Source: Pseudomonadota bacterium
GTDB lineage: Bacteria; Desulfobacterota; Desulfobulbia; Desulfobulbales; Desulfocapsaceae
Assembly (NCBI GenBank): GCA_018817385.1
Contig: JAHIUA010000005.1
Span: forward strand, 62,001 to 126,000
Direction of reading: 5' to 3'
Length of the DNA: 64,000 nt
The notes beneath the pieces were generated by a model. That model searched no databases and was not told the DNA's origin. It worked only from the letters and a program-made list of their open reading frames with translations. Below, in pieces: positions 46,710 through 60,478 of the stretch; the stretch's first letter is position 1, and every line of letters starts with the position of its first letter. The position numbers and the translations under genes were made by a program.

Positions 46710-47597
46710 ATGACGGCAAAGCTTATAAGCGGTACTGAGGTAGCTAAAGCAATTCGTGAGGAGTTGACTGCTGAGGTTGCTGAATTAAAAGAAAAACATA
46801 ATATAGTACCGGGTCTTGTCACCATTCTTGTTGGAGAGGATCCAGCATCGCAGTCCTATGTTGCAGCCAAAAACAAGACTGCCCATGCTTTAGGTATCCA
46901 TTCCGAGCAGGTTACCCTTGATGTTGAGACCAGCGAAGAAGATCTGCTGGCCTTAGTTGCTAAATATAATAACGATCCCAAAATTAACGGAATCCTTGTC
47001 CAATTACCCCTTCCTAAGCATATCAATGAAGCCAAGGTCCTTTACGCCATTGATCCGGATAAGGATGTGGATGGTTTTCATCCGGTAAATGTGGGGAAGA
47101 TGGTACTTGGTGAAAGATGCTTTCTCCCCTGTACTCCTCACGGTATCCTCGAGCTCCTTACCAGGAGCGGAGTGGAGACCAGCGGTGCCGAGGTTGTGAT
47201 CATCGGCAGGTCCAATATCGTTGGTAAGCCCATTGCCAACCTGATGCTGCAGAAGCGTGATGGCGGCAATGCCACCGTCACCCTCTGCCACACCAGGACC
47301 AAGAATATGGCGGATCACTGCCGCCGGGCAGATATTATCATAGCCGCCGTAGGCGTTCCCAAGATGATTACTGCCGATATGGTCAAAGATGGTGCCGCTG
47401 TTATTGATGTTGGCGTGAACCGTATTGGTCAAGCTGCTAACGGTAAAGCTATTCTGGCTGGAGATGTCGATTTTGAAGGGGTAAAGGAGAAGGCTTCCTG
47501 TATTACCCCAGTGCCTGGTGGTGTAGGTCCCATGACCATTACCATGTTGATGAAAAATACAGTACAGGCCGCCAAGATGGCAGCTAATCTGAGCTAA
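46710..47597 (+). CDS. folD: bifunctional methylene-THF dehydrogenase/cyclohydrolase
   Basis: A 295-residue FolD, which interconverts 10-formyl-, methenyl- and methylene-THF with NAD(P). Substrate-site YVAAKNKTA near residue 50 carries the catalytic lysine, then DVDGFHPVNVGKM near residue 117, the nucleotide-binding GRSNIVGKP near residue 167 and PGGVGPMTITML near residue 271. Length is normal. It is first of the Wood-Ljungdahl gene run; GAGG precedes the ATG. The formyl-THF synthetase partner is not in the window. Confidence 0.95.
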   Translation: MTAKLISGTEVAKAIREELTAEVAELKEKHNIVPGLVTILVGEDPASQSYVAAKNKTAHALGIHSEQVTLDVETSEEDLLALVAKYNNDPKINGILVQLPLPKHINEAKVLYAIDPDKDVDGFHPVNVGKMVLGERCFLPCTPHGILELLTRSGVETSGAEVVIIGRSNIVGKPIANLMLQKRDGGNATVTLCHTRTKNMADHCRRADIIIAAVGVPKMITADMVKDGAAVIDVGVNRIGQAANGKAILAGDVDFEGVKEKASCITPVPGGVGPMTITMLMKNTVQAAKMAANLS

Positions 47598-47662: not shown

Positions 47663-49651
47663 ATGAGCAACAGCAGAGGTGGATGCGAATCCTGTAACGA
47701 AATCACCGGTGCTTCGGCCAAAGACCTGCTCAACCAGGATTTGGCCAAACAGGTAAGGACCGCCTACGATCGTATCGAGGATCGTGGTGTTTCAGCCTGT
47801 CTTTTCGGTTCAGGGGGAACCTGCTGCCGTAACTGTAACATGGGCCCTTGTCAGATCATCGATGGAGTTGAATCCATGGTCGGTATTTGTGGTGCCACGG
47901 CTGCCACTGTTGTCGCCAGAAATTTTGCCCGTACTGTTGCCGCTGGAACGGCAGCACATACTGATCATGCCCGTGAGATGGTCATGGGCTTTATTGAGAC
48001 TGCCAAGGGCAATACCCCGCATGGGATCAAGGATGTGGCCAAGCTGCACGCCATGGCAGAGATATTCGGGGTGGAGATCGAAGGCAGGGATAAAAACGAG
48101 ATAGCTCTGGAGCTCGGTGAAAAGGCCCTGGCGGAATTTGGTCAGCAGAAGGGGACACTGGCCATGCTCAAGCGTGCTCCTGCCAAACAGCAGAAGATCT
48201 GGAAGGAAAAAGGTGTCGAGCCCAGAGGAATTGATCGTGAGGTTGTGGAGACCATGCACCGTACCCATATGGGTGTGGATCAGGACTATAAAAATCTCAT
48301 GAAGCAGGCATCCCGCTGCTCCCTGGCCGACGGTTGGGGCGCTTCCATGCTCTCCACGGAACTCACCGACATCATGTTTGGTACTCCCGTTCCTCGGCGT
48401 GCCATTGTTGATCTGGGTGTGCTTTCAGCCGATAAGGTGAATGTGACCGTTCATGGGCATGAGCCACTGCTCGCCGAAGCCCTCTGTCTGGCTGCCGAAG
48501 ATGAAGAGATGCTCGCTCTGGCCAAGAAAGTTGGAGCCAAGGGCATCAATCTGGCAGGTGTCTGCTGTACTGGCAATGAGATCCTCATGCGCCGTGGCAT
48601 TCCGGTTGCCGGATCCTTTATTCAGCAGGAAATGGTTCTGGCCACAGGCGCTGTAGAGGCCATGGTGGTCGATGTTCAGTGTGTCATGCAGTCAGTAGCT
48701 CAGGTGGTGAAGGAGAAACATACCGATATTATCACCACCAACTATCGGGCCAAGATGCCGGATGCCATCCATATGCAGTTTGAGGAAGAAGATCCATTGG
48801 GCTCTGCCAAGCGAATTCTTACCCATGCCATCAACAATTTCAAAAAACGTGGCGAGTACTATATCCCTAAAAACAATAAAGTTGATGTCGTTGTCGGATT
48901 CAGTCATGAGAGCATCAATTATATGCTTGGCGGTCGTTTCCGTCAGAGTTATCGCCCGCTGAATGACAATATTATCAATGGTCGGATTAAAGGTCTTGGC
49001 GCTCTGGTTGGTTGCGAGCATTATAAGTACTCCGATGATGTTCACTTCAAAATCGCCGTCGAACTCTTGAAAAACAACGTTCTTGTCCTCGCCACTGGTT
49101 GTGCAGCCCAGGCCCTGGGGAGAAGAGGATTGATGCGGCCCGAGGCCGCCTCTGAGTATTGTGGTGCCGGGCTCGCAGAGGTCTGTGAGACCGTTGGTAT
49201 GCCTCCGGTTCTCCATGTGGGTTCCTGTGTTGATAACAGTCGCCTGCTCATTGCCCTCACTGAAATGGTCAAAGCGGGTGGGCTTGGTGATGATATTTCC
49301 CAACTTCCGGCCTGTGGTACCGCCCCTCTGTGGATGAGTGAAAAAGCGGTGGCCATCGGTCAATATTTTGTCACCTCCGGAGCGCATGTCATCTTCCAGA
49401 ATCTTCCGATAAGCGGTTCCAAGCAGATGAGCGATTTTCTTCTTGCTGGTATAAAAGAAGAATACGGAGCCTGCTGGGATTGTGAGGAAGATCCAATTAA
49501 ACTTGCCCGGAAGATGATTAAGGCCATTGATGGAAAGCGGGCAGCCCTTGGGATCAACAAGAAACAGGATCGCGTTCTCTTCGATATGGAGATGCGTCGT
49601 GATCTTAGTTCCGGGCAAGGGATTCCCGGGGTGGGATGCGGACAGAAGTAA
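47663..49651 (+). CDS. cooS: anaerobic Ni-Fe carbon monoxide dehydrogenase, catalytic subunit
   Basis: A 662-residue CooS/AcsA that interconverts CO and CO2. N-terminal cysteines form the B and D clusters (GGTCCRNCNMGPCQI near residue 50). C-cluster ligands are visible around HGHEPLLAEA (His near residue 260), GVCCTGNE near residue 303, DVQCVMQ near 342, ATGCAAQ near 483 and HVGSCVDNSR near 522. C-terminal WMSEKAVAIG matches CooS. The ATG is chosen from GGAGG 6 nt upstream. In this operon it makes CO for acetyl-CoA synthase (or consumes it in acetate oxidation). Confidence 0.95.
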   Translation: MSNSRGGCESCNEITGASAKDLLNQDLAKQVRTAYDRIEDRGVSACLFGSGGTCCRNCNMGPCQIIDGVESMVGICGATAATVVARNFARTVAAGTAAHTDHAREMVMGFIETAKGNTPHGIKDVAKLHAMAEIFGVEIEGRDKNEIALELGEKALAEFGQQKGTLAMLKRAPAKQQKIWKEKGVEPRGIDREVVETMHRTHMGVDQDYKNLMKQASRCSLADGWGASMLSTELTDIMFGTPVPRRAIVDLGVLSADKVNVTVHGHEPLLAEALCLAAEDEEMLALAKKVGAKGINLAGVCCTGNEILMRRGIPVAGSFIQQEMVLATGAVEAMVVDVQCVMQSVAQVVKEKHTDIITTNYRAKMPDAIHMQFEEEDPLGSAKRILTHAINNFKKRGEYYIPKNNKVDVVVGFSHESINYMLGGRFRQSYRPLNDNIINGRIKGLGALVGCEHYKYSDDVHFKIAVELLKNNVLVLATGCAAQALGRRGLMRPEAASEYCGAGLAEVCETVGMPPVLHVGSCVDNSRLLIALTEMVKAGGLGDDISQLPACGTAPLWMSEKAVAIGQYFVTSGAHVIFQNLPISGSKQMSDFLLAGIKEEYGACWDCEEDPIKLARKMIKAIDGKRAALGINKKQDRVLFDMEMRRDLSSGQGIPGVGCGQK

Positions 49652-49707
49652 TCAAACGAGAAGAGTATTCTTGAATAAGTTTGTTCTTGGCAGGAGGGGT
49701 CCAACCG

Positions 49708-52386
49708 ATGAAGTCGGGCAGTAATCTAGAAACACTATTGAAACAGGGGACATTCGCCGTAACAGGTGAACTCGGCCCCCCTAAAAACGGTAATCCGGAG
49801 ATAGTTCGCGAAAAGGCGAGGCTGTTGAAAGGAAATGTGGATGCAGTTAATATCACTGACTGTCAGACAGCCATTGTGCGCATGTCTTCCATTGCCGCTG
49901 GCTTGATTGCCAAAGAGGAAGGGGTTGAACCCGTTATTCAGATGACCTGCCGTGATCGGAATCGGATCGGTATGCAGTCGGATATTCTGGGCGCCTCAGC
50001 ACTTGGGTTGAAAAACCTGCTCTGTCTTACTGGGGATCACCAGAAGTTTGGTAATCATCCCGGATCAAAAGGGGTCTTTGATATGGACTCCATTCAGCTT
50101 CTCGGCATGATGAAGGGGATGCGTGATGACAAACGTTTCCAGTGCGGAGAAGAGATCAAGAGTAATGAGCCAAGGCTTTTCCTGGGAGCTGCGGCCAATC
50201 CCTTTGCTCATCCCTTTGAGTATCGAGCGGTACGCCTCGGGAAAAAAGTGACAGCTGGTGCTGATTTTGTCCAGACGCAGATTATCTACAATGTAGAGAA
50301 ATTTGCCAAGTTCATGGAAATGGTCAGGGATCTTGGTATTGATAAGAAGTGTTATATTCTAGCTGGTGTCACACCGCCTAAGTCATTGGGGATGGCACGC
50401 TACATGAAAAACTTTGTCCCTGGCATGGAGGTCCCCGATGATATTATTCGGCGAATGAAGGATGCCAAGGATAAACAGAAAGAAGGAATCCAGATCTGTG
50501 TTGATATTATCAAACAGGTAAAAGAGATCAAGGGCGTTTCCGGTATTCATTGCATGGCTATTGAGTGGGAAAGTGCAGTCCCTGAAATTCTCAAAAGAGC
50601 AGGGCTTCTTCCCAGGCCGGGGATCACTGAAGCTGATGAACCGGCTGTTGCTGAAGAGTCGCGACAGGCCATCATCGTGCAAGCGAGGGTTACAGATGAA
50701 CTGCTCGAAAAGGCCAAGAGTGAAGCCGAGCAGATTATTGCTGTGGCCCGTGCTGAGGCAGAACGACTCATGGAGATGGCCAAGAGCGATGCTCCACAAG
50801 CTTCGACTCCATCAGCTATTGATACGACCACCAGCAGAACAACTGACGTACCTCAGGGTGCGGATGATTCAGGAGAGCATGAAATGAATGAGAAAGAACG
50901 GATCATGGCCCTTGAAGCGGTACAGCAGGGTCTTGCCGCATTGAAGAAAGCGTATGGATTGAGTGACGATCAGTTCGAAGCCTTGTCAAGTTTTGCCGGG
51001 GCTCAGGTGATTTTAAAACGGGAAGCTGAGATGACAGCGCCTGCTCCTCCAACTCCAGCAGCTGCAGCAGTAACTCCTGCTGCCCCGCTTGCTCCTGCTC
51101 CTGTTGTTGATGATAGTGCTGAGAAGGCTGCAGCAGCAGCCAAGGTCAAAGCTGAAGCAGAGGCTAAGGCCGCAGCTGAGGCTAAGGCAAAGGCCGACGC
51201 TGATGCGGCGGCTGCCAAGGCAAAGAGTGATGCCGAGGCCAAGGCTGCCGCTGAGGCCAAAGCCAAGACTGAAGAAGAAGCCAGGGTGAAAGCCGACGCA
51301 GCTGCCAAGGCTGCTGAAGAAGCCAAGGTCAAAGCCGAGGCCGAGGCCAAAACCGCCACCGCTGCTCAGACCGTAGCACCTGCTCCTGGTTTTGCTGCTG
51401 TTGAACTTGCTAAAGAAAGTACCACTCTTGCTGAGCGTAGCAGCAAGGTAGATCCCAAAAATTATCAGGGCAGATACACGGGTAAAATTCGTGCGGTAAC
51501 ACTTGGGAATGGCGATACGGTCAGGACCGTAGGTGGATCTTCTTCCATGCCCTTCCAGCTCTTTGAGGGAGAGCACCCCCATAAGCCTCTTATTGCCATG
51601 GAGGTTACGGATGTAAAACCTGATGAATGGCCGCAGACATTGACCCAACATTTCAGTGATGTCCTGGATAATCCTGTTGCCTGGGCCCAGAAATGTGTAA
51701 AGATCTATGGGGCAGAGGCTGTTGCCATTTCCCTTGGTTCCACTGACCCTAACGGTATGAATCGTCCTGCAGCCATGGCCGCCAAAGTCGCCGCAGAGGT
51801 TATTGCAGCCGTTGATGTCCCAATTATTATCTGGGGGTGTGGTAACTCAGAAAAAGATACTGAGACCTTAAGAGAGATTACCTCCATGATTGGCGACAAA
51901 AAGATCTGTCTTGCTCCTCTGGAAGATTCCAACTATCGAACCATCGGTGCTACTGCCATGGCCTTCCAGCATCCCATCGTTGCCGCATCCCCCATCGATG
52001 TTAACTTGGCCAAACAGTTGAATATCCTTTTGGAAAATCTCGGTGTACCTTTAGACAGCGTGCTCATGGATCCTTCTATCGGCGCGCTTGGCTATGGCAT
52101 CGAGTATACCTACTCGGTCATGGAGCGTATCCGCATCGCAGCCCTGACCCAGCAAGATGACAAACTCCAGGTCCCCATTATTTGTAACCTTGGTTGCGAG
52201 GTATGGAAGGCTAAAGAGACCAAACTGCCCAGCGATGATATGATTGGAGACCAGGAAATCCGCGGCATCATGATGGAGGCCCTTACTGCCAGTTGTATGC
52301 TCATGGCGGGAGGCGAAATTATGATCATGCGTCATCCCAAGGCCATTGCCATGACTAAGTCATTGATTTCTGGTCTCATGGACTGA
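49708..52386 (+). CDS. fusion of methylene-THF reductase (MetF) and CODH/ACS delta subunit (AcsD)
   Basis: An 892-residue chain. Residues about 1-310 are a MetF TIM barrel (VTGELGPPKNGNPE; LCLTGDHQKFG near 106; AGVTPPKS near 218), reducing methylene- to methyl-THF. A short helix (330-360) and a linker follow. Residues about 470-555 are a near-pure Ala/Lys/Glu/Asp helix like TolA. Residues about 565-892 are AcsD/CdhD, the small corrinoid-protein subunit (ISLGSTDPNGMNRPA; WGCGNSEKDTETL). MetF and AcsD are normally separate. An in-frame ATG at 50884 with AGGAGA just upstream would yield a 500-residue AcsD alone. AGGAGG sits 10 nt before the ATG used here. Confidence 0.88.
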   Translation: MKSGSNLETLLKQGTFAVTGELGPPKNGNPEIVREKARLLKGNVDAVNITDCQTAIVRMSSIAAGLIAKEEGVEPVIQMTCRDRNRIGMQSDILGASALGLKNLLCLTGDHQKFGNHPGSKGVFDMDSIQLLGMMKGMRDDKRFQCGEEIKSNEPRLFLGAAANPFAHPFEYRAVRLGKKVTAGADFVQTQIIYNVEKFAKFMEMVRDLGIDKKCYILAGVTPPKSLGMARYMKNFVPGMEVPDDIIRRMKDAKDKQKEGIQICVDIIKQVKEIKGVSGIHCMAIEWESAVPEILKRAGLLPRPGITEADEPAVAEESRQAIIVQARVTDELLEKAKSEAEQIIAVARAEAERLMEMAKSDAPQASTPSAIDTTTSRTTDVPQGADDSGEHEMNEKERIMALEAVQQGLAALKKAYGLSDDQFEALSSFAGAQVILKREAEMTAPAPPTPAAAAVTPAAPLAPAPVVDDSAEKAAAAAKVKAEAEAKAAAEAKAKADADAAAAKAKSDAEAKAAAEAKAKTEEEARVKADAAAKAAEEAKVKAEAEAKTATAAQTVAPAPGFAAVELAKESTTLAERSSKVDPKNYQGRYTGKIRAVTLGNGDTVRTVGGSSSMPFQLFEGEHPHKPLIAMEVTDVKPDEWPQTLTQHFSDVLDNPVAWAQKCVKIYGAEAVAISLGSTDPNGMNRPAAMAAKVAAEVIAAVDVPIIIWGCGNSEKDTETLREITSMIGDKKICLAPLEDSNYRTIGATAMAFQHPIVAASPIDVNLAKQLNILLENLGVPLDSVLMDPSIGALGYGIEYTYSVMERIRIAALTQQDDKLQVPIICNLGCEVWKAKETKLPSDDMIGDQEIRGIMMEALTASCMLMAGGEIMIMRHPKAIAMTKSLISGLMD
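50871..50886 (+). promoter_or_regulatory. internal ribosome site and ATG inside the metF-acsD fusion
   Basis: AGGAGA lies 6-8 nt before an in-frame ATG (50884-50886) at residue 393, at the boundary after the MetF module. It could allow separate translation of an AcsD of 500 residues. It may also be a relic of once-separate genes. Confidence 0.5.
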
Positions 52387-52442: not shown

Positions 52443-54647
52443 ATGTCGAAAATAATTTGTTCTGCTGCCATTCGAGGAGCGCAGAAAATTATAGATATGG
52501 CTGAAAGCAGTTACGAAGATGCCGTGAAAAAATATGGTCCAGAGAAGGAAGTATCTTTTCCTAATACCGCCTATTTTCTGCCCATTATCTACAGTATGCT
52601 GGGTGCCAAGGTTGAAAAACTGGGTGATATGGAAGATATTTTTCAGGAGTGCCGAAAGCTCATGCCCGCAGTGGTAACTGAAGATATCTGGTTGCCGTAC
52701 CTGGCACCAGCGCTTGATGCAGGTATGGCCACCTTCTTTGCCGAAGAGATGTATGAGTCCATCCGCTATCTCAACGAGCCTACTCTTTACACGGCTACAG
52801 AGGACCCAACTGCTGACAGCTACTGGCTTGGTGCTGCAGATGACGTTATCTTCCGTAAACGAGGTGTAGAGTTTGTAGACGGCACTGCGCCCGGGTTTGC
52901 CGCAATTTTAGGCACACCCGCTGATCCGGAAATGGCAGCCAAGATTGCCCTGGAATTGCAGGAGAAAAATCTCTACATCTTTATGCACGATAAGACCAAC
53001 GGACTGAGCATGCCCGAGCAGCTGGTAAAACAGAATGTCCAGGTGGGTTGGAATACCCGTCTGGTACCTTTTGGTCGTGAATACACCACCGCAGTCTTTG
53101 CCATCGGCTTTGCCTGTCGTGTCGCTCTCGCCTTTGGTGGAATCAAACCCGGTGACTACAAAGGCAATTTACTCTACAACAAAAATCGTACCTTTGCCTT
53201 TGTCATGGCCTTTGGTGAGGTTAGTGACGAGTGGTATGCCAATGCTGCAGGTGCTATCAACTGGGGTTTCCCCACCATCTCTGACTATGATATCCCGGAG
53301 ATCTTGCCCACCGGTATCTGTACCTATGAGCATGTCGTTGCCAATGTTCCCCATGAGGAGATTGTGCAGAAGGCCATTGAGGTCCGCGGTCTCAAGGTTA
53401 ATGTAACCAAGATCGATATCCCCATGTCCTTTGGTCCTGCCTTTGAGGGTGAACGTGTCCGTAAAGACGATCTCTTTATGGAGTGTGGCGGCGGCCGTAC
53501 CCCTGGTGTTGAGGTCCTTATCTCCAAGGAGATGGATGAGATTGAAGATGGCCTGGTCACCCTTGAAGGACCCGATATCTCTGATATCGAACAAGGCCAG
53601 AATCTGCCCCTGGGGATCCTGGTCGAGGTAGCCGGACGGGAAATGCAATCTGATTTCGAGCCTATCCTTGAGCGACAGTTCCATCATCTGATCAACTATA
53701 TTCAAGGCATCATGCATATGGGCCAGCGGAATATCATGTGGGTGAGGATTGGCAAGGCCGCTGTGGAAAAAGGATTCTCTTTCAAGCACATCGGTGTTGT
53801 TCTTCACGGAAAGCTTCATCAGGAGTTTGGGGCTATCGTCGATAAGATCCAGGTGAAGATTTTTACCTTGGAAGAGAAGGTCAAAGAGGTCCAAGATCTT
53901 GCGGCCTCTGTATACACTGAACGAGATCTCCGTCTCGGTGCCATGACCGATGAGACTGAAGATGTCTTTTATTCCTGCACCCTCTGTCAGTCATTTGCTC
54001 CAAGTCATGTCTGTGTTATCACCCCGGAGCGTATCGGCATGTGTGGTGCCTATAACTGGCTTGACGGGAAGGCCTCGTATCAGATCAATCCAACCGGTCC
54101 CAACCAGCCTATCCAGAAGGGTGAATGTACTGACCCTGATAATGGATACTTCGTCGGTATTAATGATTTTGTTAACCAGGCCTCTCGAGGTGCGGTTCCC
54201 GAGGTCAGTTGTTATTCGCTGATGAACAATCCCATGACGGCCTGTGGTTGTTTTGAGGCCATTGCCGCCATGCTGCCCCAATGTAACGGCATTATGGTGG
54301 TGAACCGGGATTATCTGGGGATGACACCTTCCGGTATGAAATTTACCTCACTGGCCGGTATGGCTGGTGGTGGTATGCAGACACCTGGATTTATGGGGGT
54401 CAGCAAGCACTTTATGACATCGAAAAAACTCTTTAAGGCAGAAGGTGGTATTAAACGTGTTGTCTGGTTGCCAAAGATGCTTAAGGACGAAATCGCTGAA
54501 AAACTGAAAATTGTTTGTGCAGATGCCGGGATGCCTGAATTGTTTGATATGATTGCCACAGAAGAGCAGGGAACTACTGAAGAAGAGATCCTCGCATTCC
54601 TCAAGGAAAAGGGGCATCCTGCGCTTGAAATGGAGATGGCTGTTTAG
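52443..54647 (+). CDS. acsB: CODH/ACS complex acetyl-CoA synthase (alpha/beta subunit, AcsB)
   Basis: A 734-residue acetyl-CoA synthase, close to Moorella AcsB (729). The A-cluster ligands are in the run CTLCQSFAPSHVC near residue 513 and GMCGAYNW 8 residues later; FPNTAYFLPIIYSM near residue 37 and the C-terminal MGVSKHFMTSKKLF are family-typical. It condenses a corrinoid methyl, CO and CoA at its Ni-Ni-[4Fe-4S] site, or runs in reverse to split acetyl-CoA. It follows metF-acsD after 56 nt with GGGAG before the ATG. Product direction is not fixed by sequence. Confidence 0.96.
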   Translation: MSKIICSAAIRGAQKIIDMAESSYEDAVKKYGPEKEVSFPNTAYFLPIIYSMLGAKVEKLGDMEDIFQECRKLMPAVVTEDIWLPYLAPALDAGMATFFAEEMYESIRYLNEPTLYTATEDPTADSYWLGAADDVIFRKRGVEFVDGTAPGFAAILGTPADPEMAAKIALELQEKNLYIFMHDKTNGLSMPEQLVKQNVQVGWNTRLVPFGREYTTAVFAIGFACRVALAFGGIKPGDYKGNLLYNKNRTFAFVMAFGEVSDEWYANAAGAINWGFPTISDYDIPEILPTGICTYEHVVANVPHEEIVQKAIEVRGLKVNVTKIDIPMSFGPAFEGERVRKDDLFMECGGGRTPGVEVLISKEMDEIEDGLVTLEGPDISDIEQGQNLPLGILVEVAGREMQSDFEPILERQFHHLINYIQGIMHMGQRNIMWVRIGKAAVEKGFSFKHIGVVLHGKLHQEFGAIVDKIQVKIFTLEEKVKEVQDLAASVYTERDLRLGAMTDETEDVFYSCTLCQSFAPSHVCVITPERIGMCGAYNWLDGKASYQINPTGPNQPIQKGECTDPDNGYFVGINDFVNQASRGAVPEVSCYSLMNNPMTACGCFEAIAAMLPQCNGIMVVNRDYLGMTPSGMKFTSLAGMAGGGMQTPGFMGVSKHFMTSKKLFKAEGGIKRVVWLPKMLKDEIAEKLKIVCADAGMPELFDMIATEEQGTTEEEILAFLKEKGHPALEMEMAV

Positions 54648-54821: not shown

Positions 54822-56174
54822 ATGGCTTTAACCGGTATTCAGATCCTTAAGATGCTGCCCAAGAAAAACTGCGGTGAGTGTAGCATCCCAACCTGCCTGG
54901 CCTTTGCTATGAAAGTAGCAACTGGTCAGGTGGAAATTGATGCATGTCCTTACGTTTCTGATGAGGCCAAGGCCACCATTGGTGAAGCCTCCGCGCCTCC
55001 CATCCGCACCATCAAGTTTGGTGGTGCCCAAGGTTTTGCCGCTGGCGGTGAAACCTGTATGTATCGTCATGAGAAGCGATTTGAGAACCAGACTGGCATT
55101 GCAGTGCTTGTCAGCACTGCAATGAGCGATGCTGATGTCGCTGGTCGGATAGAGCGCTTCAATAAGCTCGAGTATGAGCGCGTTGGTGTTCTTATGCGTG
55201 CCGATCTCATTGCCGTGAAAGATGCCAAAAATGATGAGGCCTCTTTTACTGCTCTGGTCCAGAAAGTACTGGATGGATCAGCTCGGGCCGCCCTTATTCT
55301 CATGAGTGATTCAGCGGCAAACCTTGCTGCTGCATGCAAGGTCTGTGGAGACAGAATACCTCTTCTCTATGGCGCCACGCTTGACAATGCCGATGAGATG
55401 GCAAAACTTGGTCTTGAGGCCAAGGCCCCTGTCGGGGTGAAGGGGTCTAATCTTGATAACTGTGTAGAAATTTCGGAAAAGCTGCTTGCCGCAGGTCTCA
55501 AAGATGTGGTTATCGACACCGGAGCCCGTACTCTCCGGGCAGCCTTTGAGGATAATGTCGTGGCCAGACGTTCTGCGGTCACAGCCAAATTCAAGCCCCT
55601 GGGCTTCCCCACCATTACCTTCCCCTGTGAGATCACGGATGATCCCATGATGGAGGCCATGGTGGCATCTGTGCTCATCGCTAAATATGCCGGGATTATA
55701 GTTCTTTCTGATATTCAGGGCGATCTTATCTTCCCGCTTTTCCTTGAACGAATGAATATCTTCACCGATCCTCAGAGACCGATGGTCGTTAGCGAGGATA
55801 TCTATCCTTTGACTGGGCCTGGCGAGAATTCACCGGTGGTCATTACCTGTAACTTCTCTCTTACCTACTTCATTGTATCCGGTGAAATTGAGAGTTCCAA
55901 GGTACCCACCTGGTTGCTCATCAAAGATACCGAAGGTCTTTCTGTACTCACAGCTTGGGCTGCCGGAAAATTTGGTGCTGATCTCATCGCCCAGTTTGTG
56001 AAGAAAAACGGAATTGAAGACAAGGTCAAACATCGTGATCTGATCATTCCTGGCTACCTGGCATCACTCAAGGGTGAGTTGGAAGAGGAACTTCCCGATT
56101 GGAAGATCATCATCGGGCCTCGTGAGGCCGGACATCTTCCCGTGTTCCTTAAAGAATGGAAACCGTCTAACTAG
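54822..56174 (+). CDS. acsC: corrinoid iron-sulfur protein large subunit (AcsC/CdhE gamma)
   Basis: A 450-residue large subunit of the corrinoid Fe-S protein that carries the methyl group to acetyl-CoA synthase. The N-terminal [4Fe-4S] domain has KNCGECSIPTC near residue 15 and a fourth Cys in DACPY near residue 41. The middle is a TIM barrel, and the C-terminus (with TWLLIKDTEGLSVLTAWAAG near residue 364) is the cobamide-binding domain. GGAGG lies before the ATG. Its partner AcsD is fused to MetF two genes upstream. The methyltransferase AcsE is not seen. Confidence 0.94.
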   Translation: MALTGIQILKMLPKKNCGECSIPTCLAFAMKVATGQVEIDACPYVSDEAKATIGEASAPPIRTIKFGGAQGFAAGGETCMYRHEKRFENQTGIAVLVSTAMSDADVAGRIERFNKLEYERVGVLMRADLIAVKDAKNDEASFTALVQKVLDGSARAALILMSDSAANLAAACKVCGDRIPLLYGATLDNADEMAKLGLEAKAPVGVKGSNLDNCVEISEKLLAAGLKDVVIDTGARTLRAAFEDNVVARRSAVTAKFKPLGFPTITFPCEITDDPMMEAMVASVLIAKYAGIIVLSDIQGDLIFPLFLERMNIFTDPQRPMVVSEDIYPLTGPGENSPVVITCNFSLTYFIVSGEIESSKVPTWLLIKDTEGLSVLTAWAAGKFGADLIAQFVKKNGIEDKVKHRDLIIPGYLASLKGELEEELPDWKIIIGPREAGHLPVFLKEWKPSN

Positions 56175-56356: not shown

Positions 56357-59300
56357 ATGGATACTGTAACACTTAGCATAAACGGCTGTCAGGTCGTTGC
56401 CGAAAAGGATCTCACCATCTTAGAAGTGGCGAGGCGATCCGATATTACCATTCCCACCCTCTGTCATGTGGAAGGAAAACCCTCGGATACCCCTTGCCTG
56501 ATGTGTGTGGTTGAGGTCGAGGGTAGGAATGAGTTGATGCGTTCCTGTGTAACCTTGGCCAAAGAGGGGATGGTGGTGAACACTGTTTCCGACAGAATCA
56601 CTGCTCACCGTCAGGAACGATTAGGCATCCTCGCAGAGACCCATTTCGGCGACTGTAAGGCCCCGTGTAACCTCACCTGCCCTGGTCAGATCAACGTCCA
56701 GGGCTATATTGCCCATGTGGCCAAGGGGCAGTATGAAGAGGCCTTGCGCCTGGTCATGGAGCGTAACCCCATGCCATTTTCAGTCGGCCGGGTCTGTCCT
56801 CGTTTCTGTGAAACAAGATGCCGACGTCTCCTTGTCGATGAACCTGTTTCTATCAATCACCTCAAACGTTTTGTGGCAGATTGGTGCATGACGCATGAGA
56901 TTGATCTCAAAATTTCTAAAGACGAACCCACTGGAAAACGAGTGGCCGTCATTGGAGGTGGTCCTGCAGGGCTCACAGCTGCCTATTTTCTCACCAGACG
57001 AGGGCATGATGTGACCATTTACGAGGCTGCTCCGAAACTGGGAGGTGCCCTTCGCTACGGTTTTCTTGAGTTCCGTATACCGCGTGATGTCCTTGATTAC
57101 GAGATTAATGCCATCCTTCGACTTGGGATTTCTGTGAAATTGAGTCAGAAATGGGGCAAAGATTTTACCATTCAATCTCTCAAGGATCAAGGCTTCGATG
57201 CCGTTTTTATCGCCTCTGGAACAGGTGTCGATATCCCTCTTAATATTAAGGGTTGTGTCAATCCCCATGTCTATTCAGCGATGAATTACCTGAGGAAGGT
57301 GGCCGAAGGGAAGAAACTTGATATGGGAAAACGGGCTGCAGTTATCGGTGGCAACAATATAGCCATGGAAGTAGCCCGTACCCTGTTGCGGCAGGGGGTA
57401 GAAGAGGTAACCGTTGTCTACCCGCAGGCCCGCTTAGAGATGCCCGCCCATCAGCGAAATATCAGAGAGGCAGGAAAAGAGGGGACTCAGTTTTTGCTTA
57501 TGGCTTCCCCTGTTGAGATCTGTGATGCAGGAAACAACCCCAGCCGCTTGAAACTTGAGCTGATCAGGATGAAACTTGGCAAGCCGGATGACCAGGGAAA
57601 ACGAAGTCCGGAACCCATCCCCGGTTCCACAAGTATCCTCCAGGTCGATTCCATTGTCTCGTCCCTTGGCCAACTTGCTGTCAGTGAACAGTTCGAAGGG
57701 GGAGAGCTGGAACAATCCATTGAACTTTCTCCCCGCAATACCATTGTTGCCAATCCGAGAAGTTCGCAGACCAATATCGATGGAGTCTTTGCGGGGGGGG
57801 ACGTCGCCAGCGGACCAAAATCTGTTATTCAGGCGGTGGTTTCTGCCCGAAGGGCGGTTGCCAATATTCATGCTTATATTATGGGTGTTGAAAAAGAGCC
57901 AGCCGATAACCGTTTCAATTTTAATCGGGGCAAGGGTTTTGATGATGTGGCTCTCAAAAACTTTGACGGTATCAAGGTCACACTGCGTGAAAAAATGCCA
58001 ACCAGGCCACCGGAAATCTGTCGTCAGGATTTTGACGAGGTCAAATTGGGTTTTACTGAAAAAATGGCACTCAGGGAAGCAGAGCGCTGCCTCTCCTGTG
58101 GCTGTACCGCCTTTGACCGTTGTGATCTGAAGCGACTCTCCATTGACTATAATGTCAATATCAATAAGACCGGAACGGGTACAACTCCTATCTATGGCAA
58201 GGATTACTCACACCCGGCCTTTATTATCGACCGGGACAAGTGTATCTACTGCAAGCGCTGTGAACGTTCCTGTGAATATGATGCCTTGGCAGTTTCTGCC
58301 GATACCATGGATGAGAAAGGACGTCCCCTGGGGCTGGTAATCAAATTTAAGGAGAACTGTGTCTCCTGTGGTGCCTGTGTCGATAGCTGTTCAACCGGAG
58401 CCCTCAACAAGAAGGCTCAGATTGTCCCTGTACAGGGAGAGGACATTAAAGAGGTTCGGACTACCTGTCCGTATTGCGGAGCAGGATGTCAGATGGTTCT
58501 CCGGGTTAAGGGAGACACCATATTAGAAGTGACCTCTGAGAAGGATCTGGCCCCTAATTATGGTGCGCTCTGCGTCAAGGGTCGACTGGGACACGAATTC
58601 ATTCAGCATAAGGATAGGCTGAAAAAACCGTTGATCCGTAAAAACGGTATGCTGGTAGAGACTACCTGGGATGAGGCCATGGAATACACGGCCAAGAAGT
58701 TTTTTGACCTCAAGGCCGAATACGGACCTGATTCCATTGCCGGATTCAGTTGCGCCCGGGCGACCAACGAGGAAAATTACCTCATGCAGAAGTTCATGAG
58801 AACATCCATAGGGACGAATAATATCGATCATTGTGCCCGCCTCTGACACGCTCCCACGGTGGCCAGTTTGGCCCTTACCTTCGGAAGTGGCGCAATGACA
58901 AATTCAATCATGGATTCCAGGAAGACGGATCTCTTTCTGATGATCGGTTCCAACCCTGATACCGGACATCCGACTATCGGTATGCGGATTCACCAGGCCA
59001 TCAAAAGGGGGGCGAAACTGATTGTTGTCGATCCTCGTAAGACAAGACTTGCTGAGAATGCCGATCAATGGCTGCGCATAATACCCGGCACTGATGTTGC
59101 TCTTTTAAATGGTCTCATGCACATTATTCTGGAAGAGGAGCTCTGGGATAAGAAGTTTGTGGAAGAACGGACCGAGGATTTTGATGAACTGGTCCAGGTG
59201 ATGAAAAAATATACCCCGGATCACGTCTCGAAAATCACCGGTCTGCCCACTGAACAGCTTTTCACCGTAGCCAGGATGTATGCTGCCCAAGGTCGTCATG

Positions 59301-60478
59301 CTATCTACCATGGCATGGGTATCACCCATTATGTTACCGGTACCGATCGGGTAAAATCCATTGCCAACCTGGCCATGCTCTGCGGAAAGGTTGGGGTTGA
59401 AGGGGGAGGCTGTAATCCTCTTCGAGGACAGAACAATGTTCAGGGTGCCTGCGATATGGGGGCCTTGTTTAATACCCTGCCAGGGTACACCTCTTTGGAG
59501 GATAGCGATCTCTTTGATCGGTATGAAGAGAAGTGGAAGGTCAAATTACCGCGTCGACCCGGAAAGCCTGCCACCGAGGTGTGGGATAATGTCCTTTCTG
59601 GTGATATTCGAGGGCTTTATGTCTTTGGGGAAGATCCTGCTGTGGCTGACCCCAATATTGGTCATGTCCAGAAGGCCTTGGAAAAAGTTGATTTCCTCGT
59701 TGTCCAGGATATCTTTCTCACAGACACGGCAAAGGCTGCCGATGTCGTTTTCCCTGCCGCATGTTTTGCCGAGAAAGATGGTACATTCTCCAATACCGAA
59801 CGCAGGGTACAACGGGTACGTAAGGCCGTGAATCCTCCAGGTGAAGCACGTCCTGACTGGCAGATCTTCCGTGATCTCTCTCACAAGATGGGTTACGACA
59901 TGGATTACACGTCTGCCGAGGATGTCTTTGAAGAGATTCGCAGCCTTCTCCCGCAATACAAGGGAATCACTTACAAACGTCTGGAAAAAGTCGGGCTCCA
60001 ATGGCCTGTACCCGATGAGAATCATCCAGGGACGCCCGTGCTGCATACCAAAAGTTTCACCAGAGGGAAGGGGCTTTTTATTCCGGAAGATTATATAGCA
60101 CCGGTGGAACAGATAGATGAAGAGTACCCGATGTATTTCACCACCGGACGTGATCTGGCCCGCTATAATTTCAGTTCCATGACTGGGAAGACCGCTGAGC
60201 TGAATGCCATCAGTCCACAGGCCAAGGCGGAAGTCAATCCAGTAGACGCAAAACGCATGAAAATCGCTGAGGGTGATTTGATTCGAATGACTTCCCGTCG
60301 TGGATCTGTAGAGATGCCGGCGACTATCACTGATCGCTCGCAAGAAGGTACTATTTTTACCACCTATAATCATATTGAAGCGCTGGTAAACTTTCTGACT
60401 CTGGATGCCCTGGATCGGTTGTCCAGGAGTCCTGAGTATAAACTTTGTACTATCAAGGTCGAAAAGGTCAATGCCTGA
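56357..60478 (+). CDS. fdhA: selenocysteine formate dehydrogenase fused to NuoG-like and GltD-like modules
   Basis: One 1373-residue selenoprotein spanning an in-frame TGA at 58844-58846 (residue 830). Order: [2Fe-2S] domain with Cys 36, 47, 50, 64; GltD/NfnB-like module (DCKAPCNLTCPG near 98; FAD fold GGGPAGLTAAYFL near 200; second nucleotide fold GGNNIAMEVARTLL near 330); [4Fe-4S] ferredoxin region (CIYCKRCERSC near 629; CVSCGACVDSC near 668); molybdopterin domain with CPYCGAGCQ near 705, then DHCARL-U-HAPTVASL. The reading frames before and after the TGA are in register. It would interconvert formate and CO2, with electrons to NAD(P) or the HdrA-MvhD relay. No strong ribosome site; a 2Fe-2S start is canonical. 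Confidence 0.92.
58858..58879 (+). promoter_or_regulatory. candidate SECIS hairpin for fdhA UGA
   Basis: Eleven nt after the UGA, GGT-GGCC-AGTTT-GGCC-CTT-ACC can fold: GGCC pairs with GGCC around a 5-nt loop, extended by GGT/ACC across a CTT bulge. Position and bulge match bacterial SECIS elements read by SelB. Confidence 0.6.

Follow-up and report, generated by a model that had tools for sequence, protein, structure and literature searches.

Among the routes of carbon fixation, the Wood-Ljungdahl pathway is often counted as one of the oldest. In this pathway, MetF makes methyl-THF, AcsE transfers the methyl group to the cobalt of AcsCD, and AcsB joins the methyl with CO. For the methyl group's passage between folate and the corrinoid protein, the usual assumption is diffusion from one separate enzyme to another. 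Classical acetogens have the same two enzymes considered here, MetF and AcsD, as separate proteins, unlike the fusion described below.

A MetF-AcsD fusion is already known in print. Melton et al. 2016 give 'mthfr/acsD ... fusion' in an abbreviation list for Desulfurivibrio alkaliphilus (PMC5016858), with a legend stating that the cluster is based on delta proteobacterium MLMS-1 and citing Pierce et al. 2008. The domain pair is the same as that of our locus and is not new. An internal start, a wider distribution and an exchange of linkers, all three of which are described here, go unmentioned in the available text of PMC5016858, where the term 'start codon' is absent. The available portions of PMC12142623, PMC9751629, PMC4911364, PMC7117923, PMC10553843, PMC8780430, PMC11247825 and PMC6895022 do not mention the fusion, and none of five terms sought occurs in PMC5516251. 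This literature search was aimed at the fusion and its organisms, and within that scope the internal start may be unreported. The closest parallel for such a start comes from unrelated proteins in an unrelated pathway, where Cas11b arises by internal in-frame translation of cas8b (PMC11899642). There, a single frame gives a long protein and, from an internal Met, a C-terminal subunit of the same complex; this was shown experimentally for Cas11b, whereas here it is argued from conservation alone.

The metF-acsD frame and its surroundings

The locus lies in a 64,000-nucleotide stretch of contig JAHIUA010000005.1 from a member of the Desulfocapsaceae (the window). The single-frame MetF-AcsD fusion proposed at 49708-52386 was confirmed at exactly these coordinates, with 892 codons and both Pfam domains. 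The features discussed in this work are as follows.

46710-47597, + strand: folD, neighbour
47663-49651, + strand: cooS/acsA, CO dehydrogenase, neighbour (profile search)
49692-49697, + strand: AGGAGG, Shine-Dalgarno of the full-length product (sequence; duplex energy)
49708-52386, + strand: metF-acsD fusion ORF, ATG at 49708, stop at 52384-52386, 892 aa, 95.3 kDa
49708-50607, + strand: MetF domain (methylenetetrahydrofolate reductase), residues 1-300 (PF02219; Foldseek match to T. thermophilus MTHFR)
50608-50883, + strand: linker 1, variable (57 ORFs, 71-101 codons); residues 329-360 are predicted to form a helix
50871-50875, + strand: internal Shine-Dalgarno AGGAG, in frame within Ser-Gly-Glu, 8 nt 5' of the internal ATG
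50884-52386, + strand: free AcsD as candidate second product, starting at the internal ATG (500 aa, 52.5 kDa; inferred)
50884-51027, + strand: helical hairpin, conserved (residues 393-440; helices modelled at 395-415 and 420-437)
51028-51465, + strand: linker 2, comprising a Pro/Ala stretch, an A/K/E helix (51121-51351, residues 472-548) and a short spacer
51466-52383, + strand: AcsD, residues 587-892 (PF03599; PDB 2h9a_B, 4djd_D)
52443-54647, + strand: acsB, acetyl-CoA synthase, neighbour (profile search)
54822-56174, + strand: neighbour feature 3' of acsB (profile search)

Both halves belong to the expected families. The MTHFR Pfam domain spans residues 8-299, and the PF02219 profile aligns over positions 3-287 of 287 with 142.5 bits (cut-off 24). 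The NCBIfam equivalogs for NAD(P)H-dependent MetF score below their cut-offs (TIGR00676, 79.3 bits against 293.7; NF006396, 227.8 against 453), and the electron donor of the MetF half is therefore left without a claim. The CdhD Pfam domain spans residues 597-875 (PF03599, 148.1 bits, cut-off 24.8), and the AcsD half scores 372.4 bits with NF003376 (cut-off 280), placing it in the CdhD family. The narrower AcsD/CdhD models remain below their cut-offs (NF003377, 486.2 of 527 bits; NF040759 or WLP_AcsD, 302 of 430; TIGR00381, 227.5 of 252.9). The AcsD half matches 2h9a_B at an E value of 6.1e-84, and Foldseek searches with the predicted model of the whole protein pair its AcsD end with CFeSP small subunits (4djd_D, 2h9a_B) and its MetF end with MTHFRs; the AcsD half thus has the CFeSP small-subunit fold. 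The gene is surrounded by folD, cooS, acsB, acsC, formate dehydrogenase and an HdrA-like protein; with cooS, acsB and acsC adjoining it, AcsD is encoded together with acsA, acsB and acsC.

In the predicted structure, a MetF barrel is followed by a helix at 329-360, the hairpin (395-415 and 420-437), helices between 476 and 545 and, last, an AcsD barrel. The model has a mean pLDDT of 74.8 and a pTM of 0.53, the relative placement of the domains is unreliable, and the alignment used for the structure had 50 sequences selected among those available. The roughly 85-residue A/K/E/D-rich stretch with a Pro/Ala linker noted at first pass is present, A, K, E or D filling 76 of 85 positions in its densest part (468-552). 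The description of this helix as TolA-like holds for composition only; TIGR02794 gives 28.2 bits against a cut-off of 59.45, and homology to TolA was rejected. A resemblance of the hairpin to TAL effectors was likewise set aside as helix-hairpin similarity, since no stretch passes alone and the Pfam scores are below cut-off. Elsewhere in the window, a fused oxidoreductase/formate dehydrogenase frame at 56357-60478 is broken by a TGA at 58844-58846 (context DHCARL*HAPT), where selenocysteine is likely inserted in an Fdh selenoprotein; the 52 nt starting at this TGA fold no better than shuffles (z -0.32).

Recurrence of the fusion and exchange of its linkers

Within the order Desulfobulbales, a group of sulfur bacteria, the hairpin was found in 141 of 257 genomes and 47 of 69 genera. 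In 115 of these 141 it is part of a frame no shorter than 836 aa; the other 26 include contig-end cuts, G079 (frameshift; probably the genome of locus L102), and G017 and G052 (in-frame TAG). The fused frame is complete in 79 of 106 loci from two overlapping collections, and 63 of these 79 frames are distinct. Five loci hold both domains outside one frame, namely L016 and L039 from one genome (TAG in MetF), L058 and L062 (N gaps) and L102 (one-base shift), none of which was accepted as a truly unfused member, and the rest are contig-end cuts or other genes. None of the two-domain loci of the order has a stop between the two halves. Single TAG codons break the fusion frame in MetF in L016/L039 (G017) and in AcsD in L124 (G052), possibly through error, decay or recoding. 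Among close genomes, some match occurs in 54 of 56 (the window's own counted), with full-length fused places in eight families. Seventy-four loci come from named genome contigs, for example of Desulfocapsa, Desulfobulbaceae, Ca. Electronema aureum and Desulfurivibrio sp., and the carriers of the fusion include a cable bacterium (L100).

This recurrence disposes of the possibility, raised at first pass, that a sequencing or assembly error had removed a stop near 50880. Beyond the draft status of the window's genome nothing speaks for such an artefact, and the complete fused frames in 79 of 106 loci (63 distinct) and in 115 genomes come from many different assemblies, single-contig genomes included, and leave it a negligible probability.

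The remaining 116 of the 257 genomes of the order gave no match to the hairpin. In ten hairpin-less genomes of the window's own family (from G020-G033), AcsD is unfused and has its own C-terminal Pro/Ala and A/K/E tail. In these proteins (L107-L116, L169, L170; G020-G033) the tail ends in a short peptide. The clusters of G031 and G033, which belong to this group, have the order acsV-acsD-cooS-acsB-acsC-acsE without metF; they differ from our locus in that AcsD is unfused, yet it carries the A/K/E tail at its C-terminus. G014, from the window's own genus, has a short separate AcsD (39% identity) without a detected hairpin.

Outside the order, a phylum sample of 297 genomes contained frames with both halves (821-1174 aa) in other families as well, and seven chosen genomes gave further frames of 722-761 aa. 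Of 29 distant loci re-derived from the DNA, 26 are fused in one frame, two leave the contig before AcsD (L071, L072) and one is split (L167, genome G353). Read by eye, the linkers of the distant fused proteins (L130-L133, L151-L168) are wholly different and consist of coiled coil, TPR-like or VEK(P) repeats. In these lineages it is thus the connection of MetF to AcsD that is conserved, and neither its material nor the A/K/E helix. The first-pass reading of this helix as a tether survives in part, as the tether is real and selectively kept, but the helix itself is dispensable.

The putative internal start and the frame upstream of it

Directly 5' of the hairpin and in frame, AGGAG at 50871-50875 is followed after eight bases by the ATG at 50884. 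Judged in the window's genome alone, this site is unremarkable. Among 1,154 internal ATGs (148 ORFs, 264 kb), 10 have AGGAG or GGAGG at such a distance, the internal site included, and its modelled duplex of -7.4 is equalled or exceeded at 36 of the 1,154, so that its strength in a single genome is not significant alone. The starts of metF (-10.8), cooS (-9.5), acsC (-9.3), acsB (-7.7) and folD (-6.2) were modelled with the same assumed anti-Shine-Dalgarno, ACCUCCUUA, which may differ from the genome's own 16S end.

It is the conservation of the site that stands out. All 58 of the 58 distinct ORFs spell its glycine as GGA, a codon that accounts for 18% of Gly codons, and none of the other columns among the 194 conserved four- or six-fold ones uses a single codon. 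(Codon tests covered 58 of the 63 distinct complete ORFs, the distant L066, L074, L075, L082 and L083 being excluded; for the tree and linker-1 tests L104, incomplete in MetF, was also excluded, giving 57.) On the maximum-likelihood tree of 57 ORFs, the glycine column has 0 synonymous changes by Fitch parsimony, compared with at least 7 each (median 20) at the other 100 invariant four-fold columns. The seven-residue windows at the site have the lowest synonymous diversity of the whole ORF, and the third base of the codon preceding the glycine codon is A or G in 57 of 58 rows.

GGAGA and the ATG are present at the hairpin in all 140 assessable genomes. The pattern GGAGARSAYRMRATGAAYGAR matches at the hairpin itself, with overlapping coordinates, in 130 of the 141 hairpin genomes, and a reversed-pattern control gave 0 among the matches listed. 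Since this pattern requires GGA, the ten assessable genomes without an exact match were read singly as a complement, and GGAGA and ATG are kept in all of them; the eleventh, G119, is truncated by the end of its contig. Three genomes with a pattern match and no hairpin match (G099, G103, G207) were set aside. Between -25 and +25 of the internal ATG the RNA shows less structure than 91% of the windows of its ORF on average (n=58), and the first codons after the ATG are A-rich. The protein residues around the site (D-A-G-E-H-E-M-N) are likewise conserved, but protein conservation cannot fix a glycine codon. The internal Shine-Dalgarno is under nucleotide-level selection, and in having a conserved Shine-Dalgarno and start under such selection the gene matches those with programmed internal initiation.

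The frame upstream shows a constraint of its own. Linker 1 varies among 20 lengths (71-101 codons) in 57 ORFs and contains 0 stops in 4,990 codons, although 28% of these codons are one base from a stop; the other two frames contain a stop in 57 of 57 and 52 of 57 ORFs. This shows selection against stops in the linker-1 frame. If free AcsD were the only product, stops would be free to collect there, and if the fusion were the only product, nothing would hold the glycine codon; both products thus appear to be selected.

Distant relatives also bear on internal initiation. In G353, a single-contig genome, metF and acsD lie in the same frame parted by TAA, and the apparent acsD start is an ATG that follows GGGGGAAAGA (GGGGGA precedes the ATG) at the helix equivalent to the hairpin. 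The fused L162-L164 have a strong in-frame Shine-Dalgarno and ATG at the equivalent helix, and counting these, 7 of 26 distant fused ORFs (also L130, L131, L152, L156) have a strong Shine-Dalgarno with ATG or GTG near the hairpin. The frequency of such sites (56 in 24,300 codons) predicts about 1.9 among the 26; the interval was chosen afterwards and some of the 26 rows are related (L075 and L151 appear to come from a single genome), so that the support is modest. The other 19, including L165, L166 and L168 from G353's family, have no passing internal start at the hairpin, and conservation of the internal start across all distant fused relatives was not found. In L158, GGAGG lies four bases 5' of an ATG near the hairpin, a spacing too short for the test.

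A proposed two-product gene and what it would mean

We consider it probable that one gene makes two products, a 95-kDa tethered MetF-AcsD and, via internal initiation, a 52.5-kDa free AcsD. Translation from 49708 would give the 95-kDa protein, in which a long, flexible linker connects the maker of methyl-THF with the small subunit of the corrinoid protein that accepts the methyl group, and translation from 50884 would give a free AcsD with the helical hairpin as its N-terminus. No second AcsD was found in the window's genome (a draft of 105 contigs), and with this one AcsD locus, free AcsD could come from the metF-acsD gene alone. The conserved internal ribosome-binding site (50871-50886) was missed at first pass; it predicts free AcsD, and the single 95-kDa band proposed then is not expected. 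The earlier interpretation as a whole is partly supported.

That the gene yields the 95-kDa protein only, with AGGAG-ATG kept for a pause between domains or as a protein motif, is unlikely. It would fit the conservation of D-A-G-E-H-E-M-N as protein and the 19 distant fused ORFs that lack the internal site; a protein motif would still leave the glycine codon free, and a pause would require neither an ATG 8 nt downstream nor A-rich first codons nor open RNA. The apparent real start at the equivalent place in G353 also argues against it. Less probable still is that the locus is effectively two genes, with most AcsD coming from the internal start and the read-through fusion being a functionless by-product. 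G353 is a related genome in which the genes are indeed parted by a stop, and the conserved internal site would suit such an arrangement, but the stop-free linker 1 in its 20 lengths, the long frame retained in 115 of 141 genomes and the replacement linkers of distant lineages, which stay in frame, all weigh against it. The two-product gene accounts for the conserved glycine codon and the open linker frame together, although the separate AcsD without a hairpin in G014, of the same genus, counts against it.

If both products are made, the tether would concentrate MetF locally around the corrinoid protein, near the AcsE/AcsCD methyl-transfer step, and free AcsD would supplement AcsCD so that only a fraction of complexes carries MetF. 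Untethered AcsD might also keep oligomeric MetF from cross-linking every complex. The tether may thereby permit substrate channelling. Against channelling counts that AcsE, which is required between MetF and AcsCD, is encoded on a contig other than the fusion's, where a pterin-binding methyltransferase gene stands beside that of a RACo protein; we read the two as acsE and acsV. A metV-like gene on a further contig encodes a putative MetV partner. On contig C45 of G000 (L002/L185), a 537-aa frame combines another, distant MetF (29% identity) with a C-terminal domain of the MetV type, and relatives have frames of similar length with distant MetF.

The fusion can conceal AcsD from annotation. In the available text of the paper on Ca. 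Desulfobulbus rimicarensis, metF, acsE and acsABC are listed and corrinoid iron-sulfur protein genes are mentioned, with acsD unnamed; contig L054 of this organism carries the fused frame. We give an even chance to the proposal that the internal start sets the ratio of tethered to free corrinoid protein, and that methyl-THF production would thereby be docked covalently on a chosen fraction of CODH/ACS complexes across much of the order. With a covalent tether across much of the order, and its linkers exchanged in deeper relatives, channelling at the methyl step becomes directly testable.
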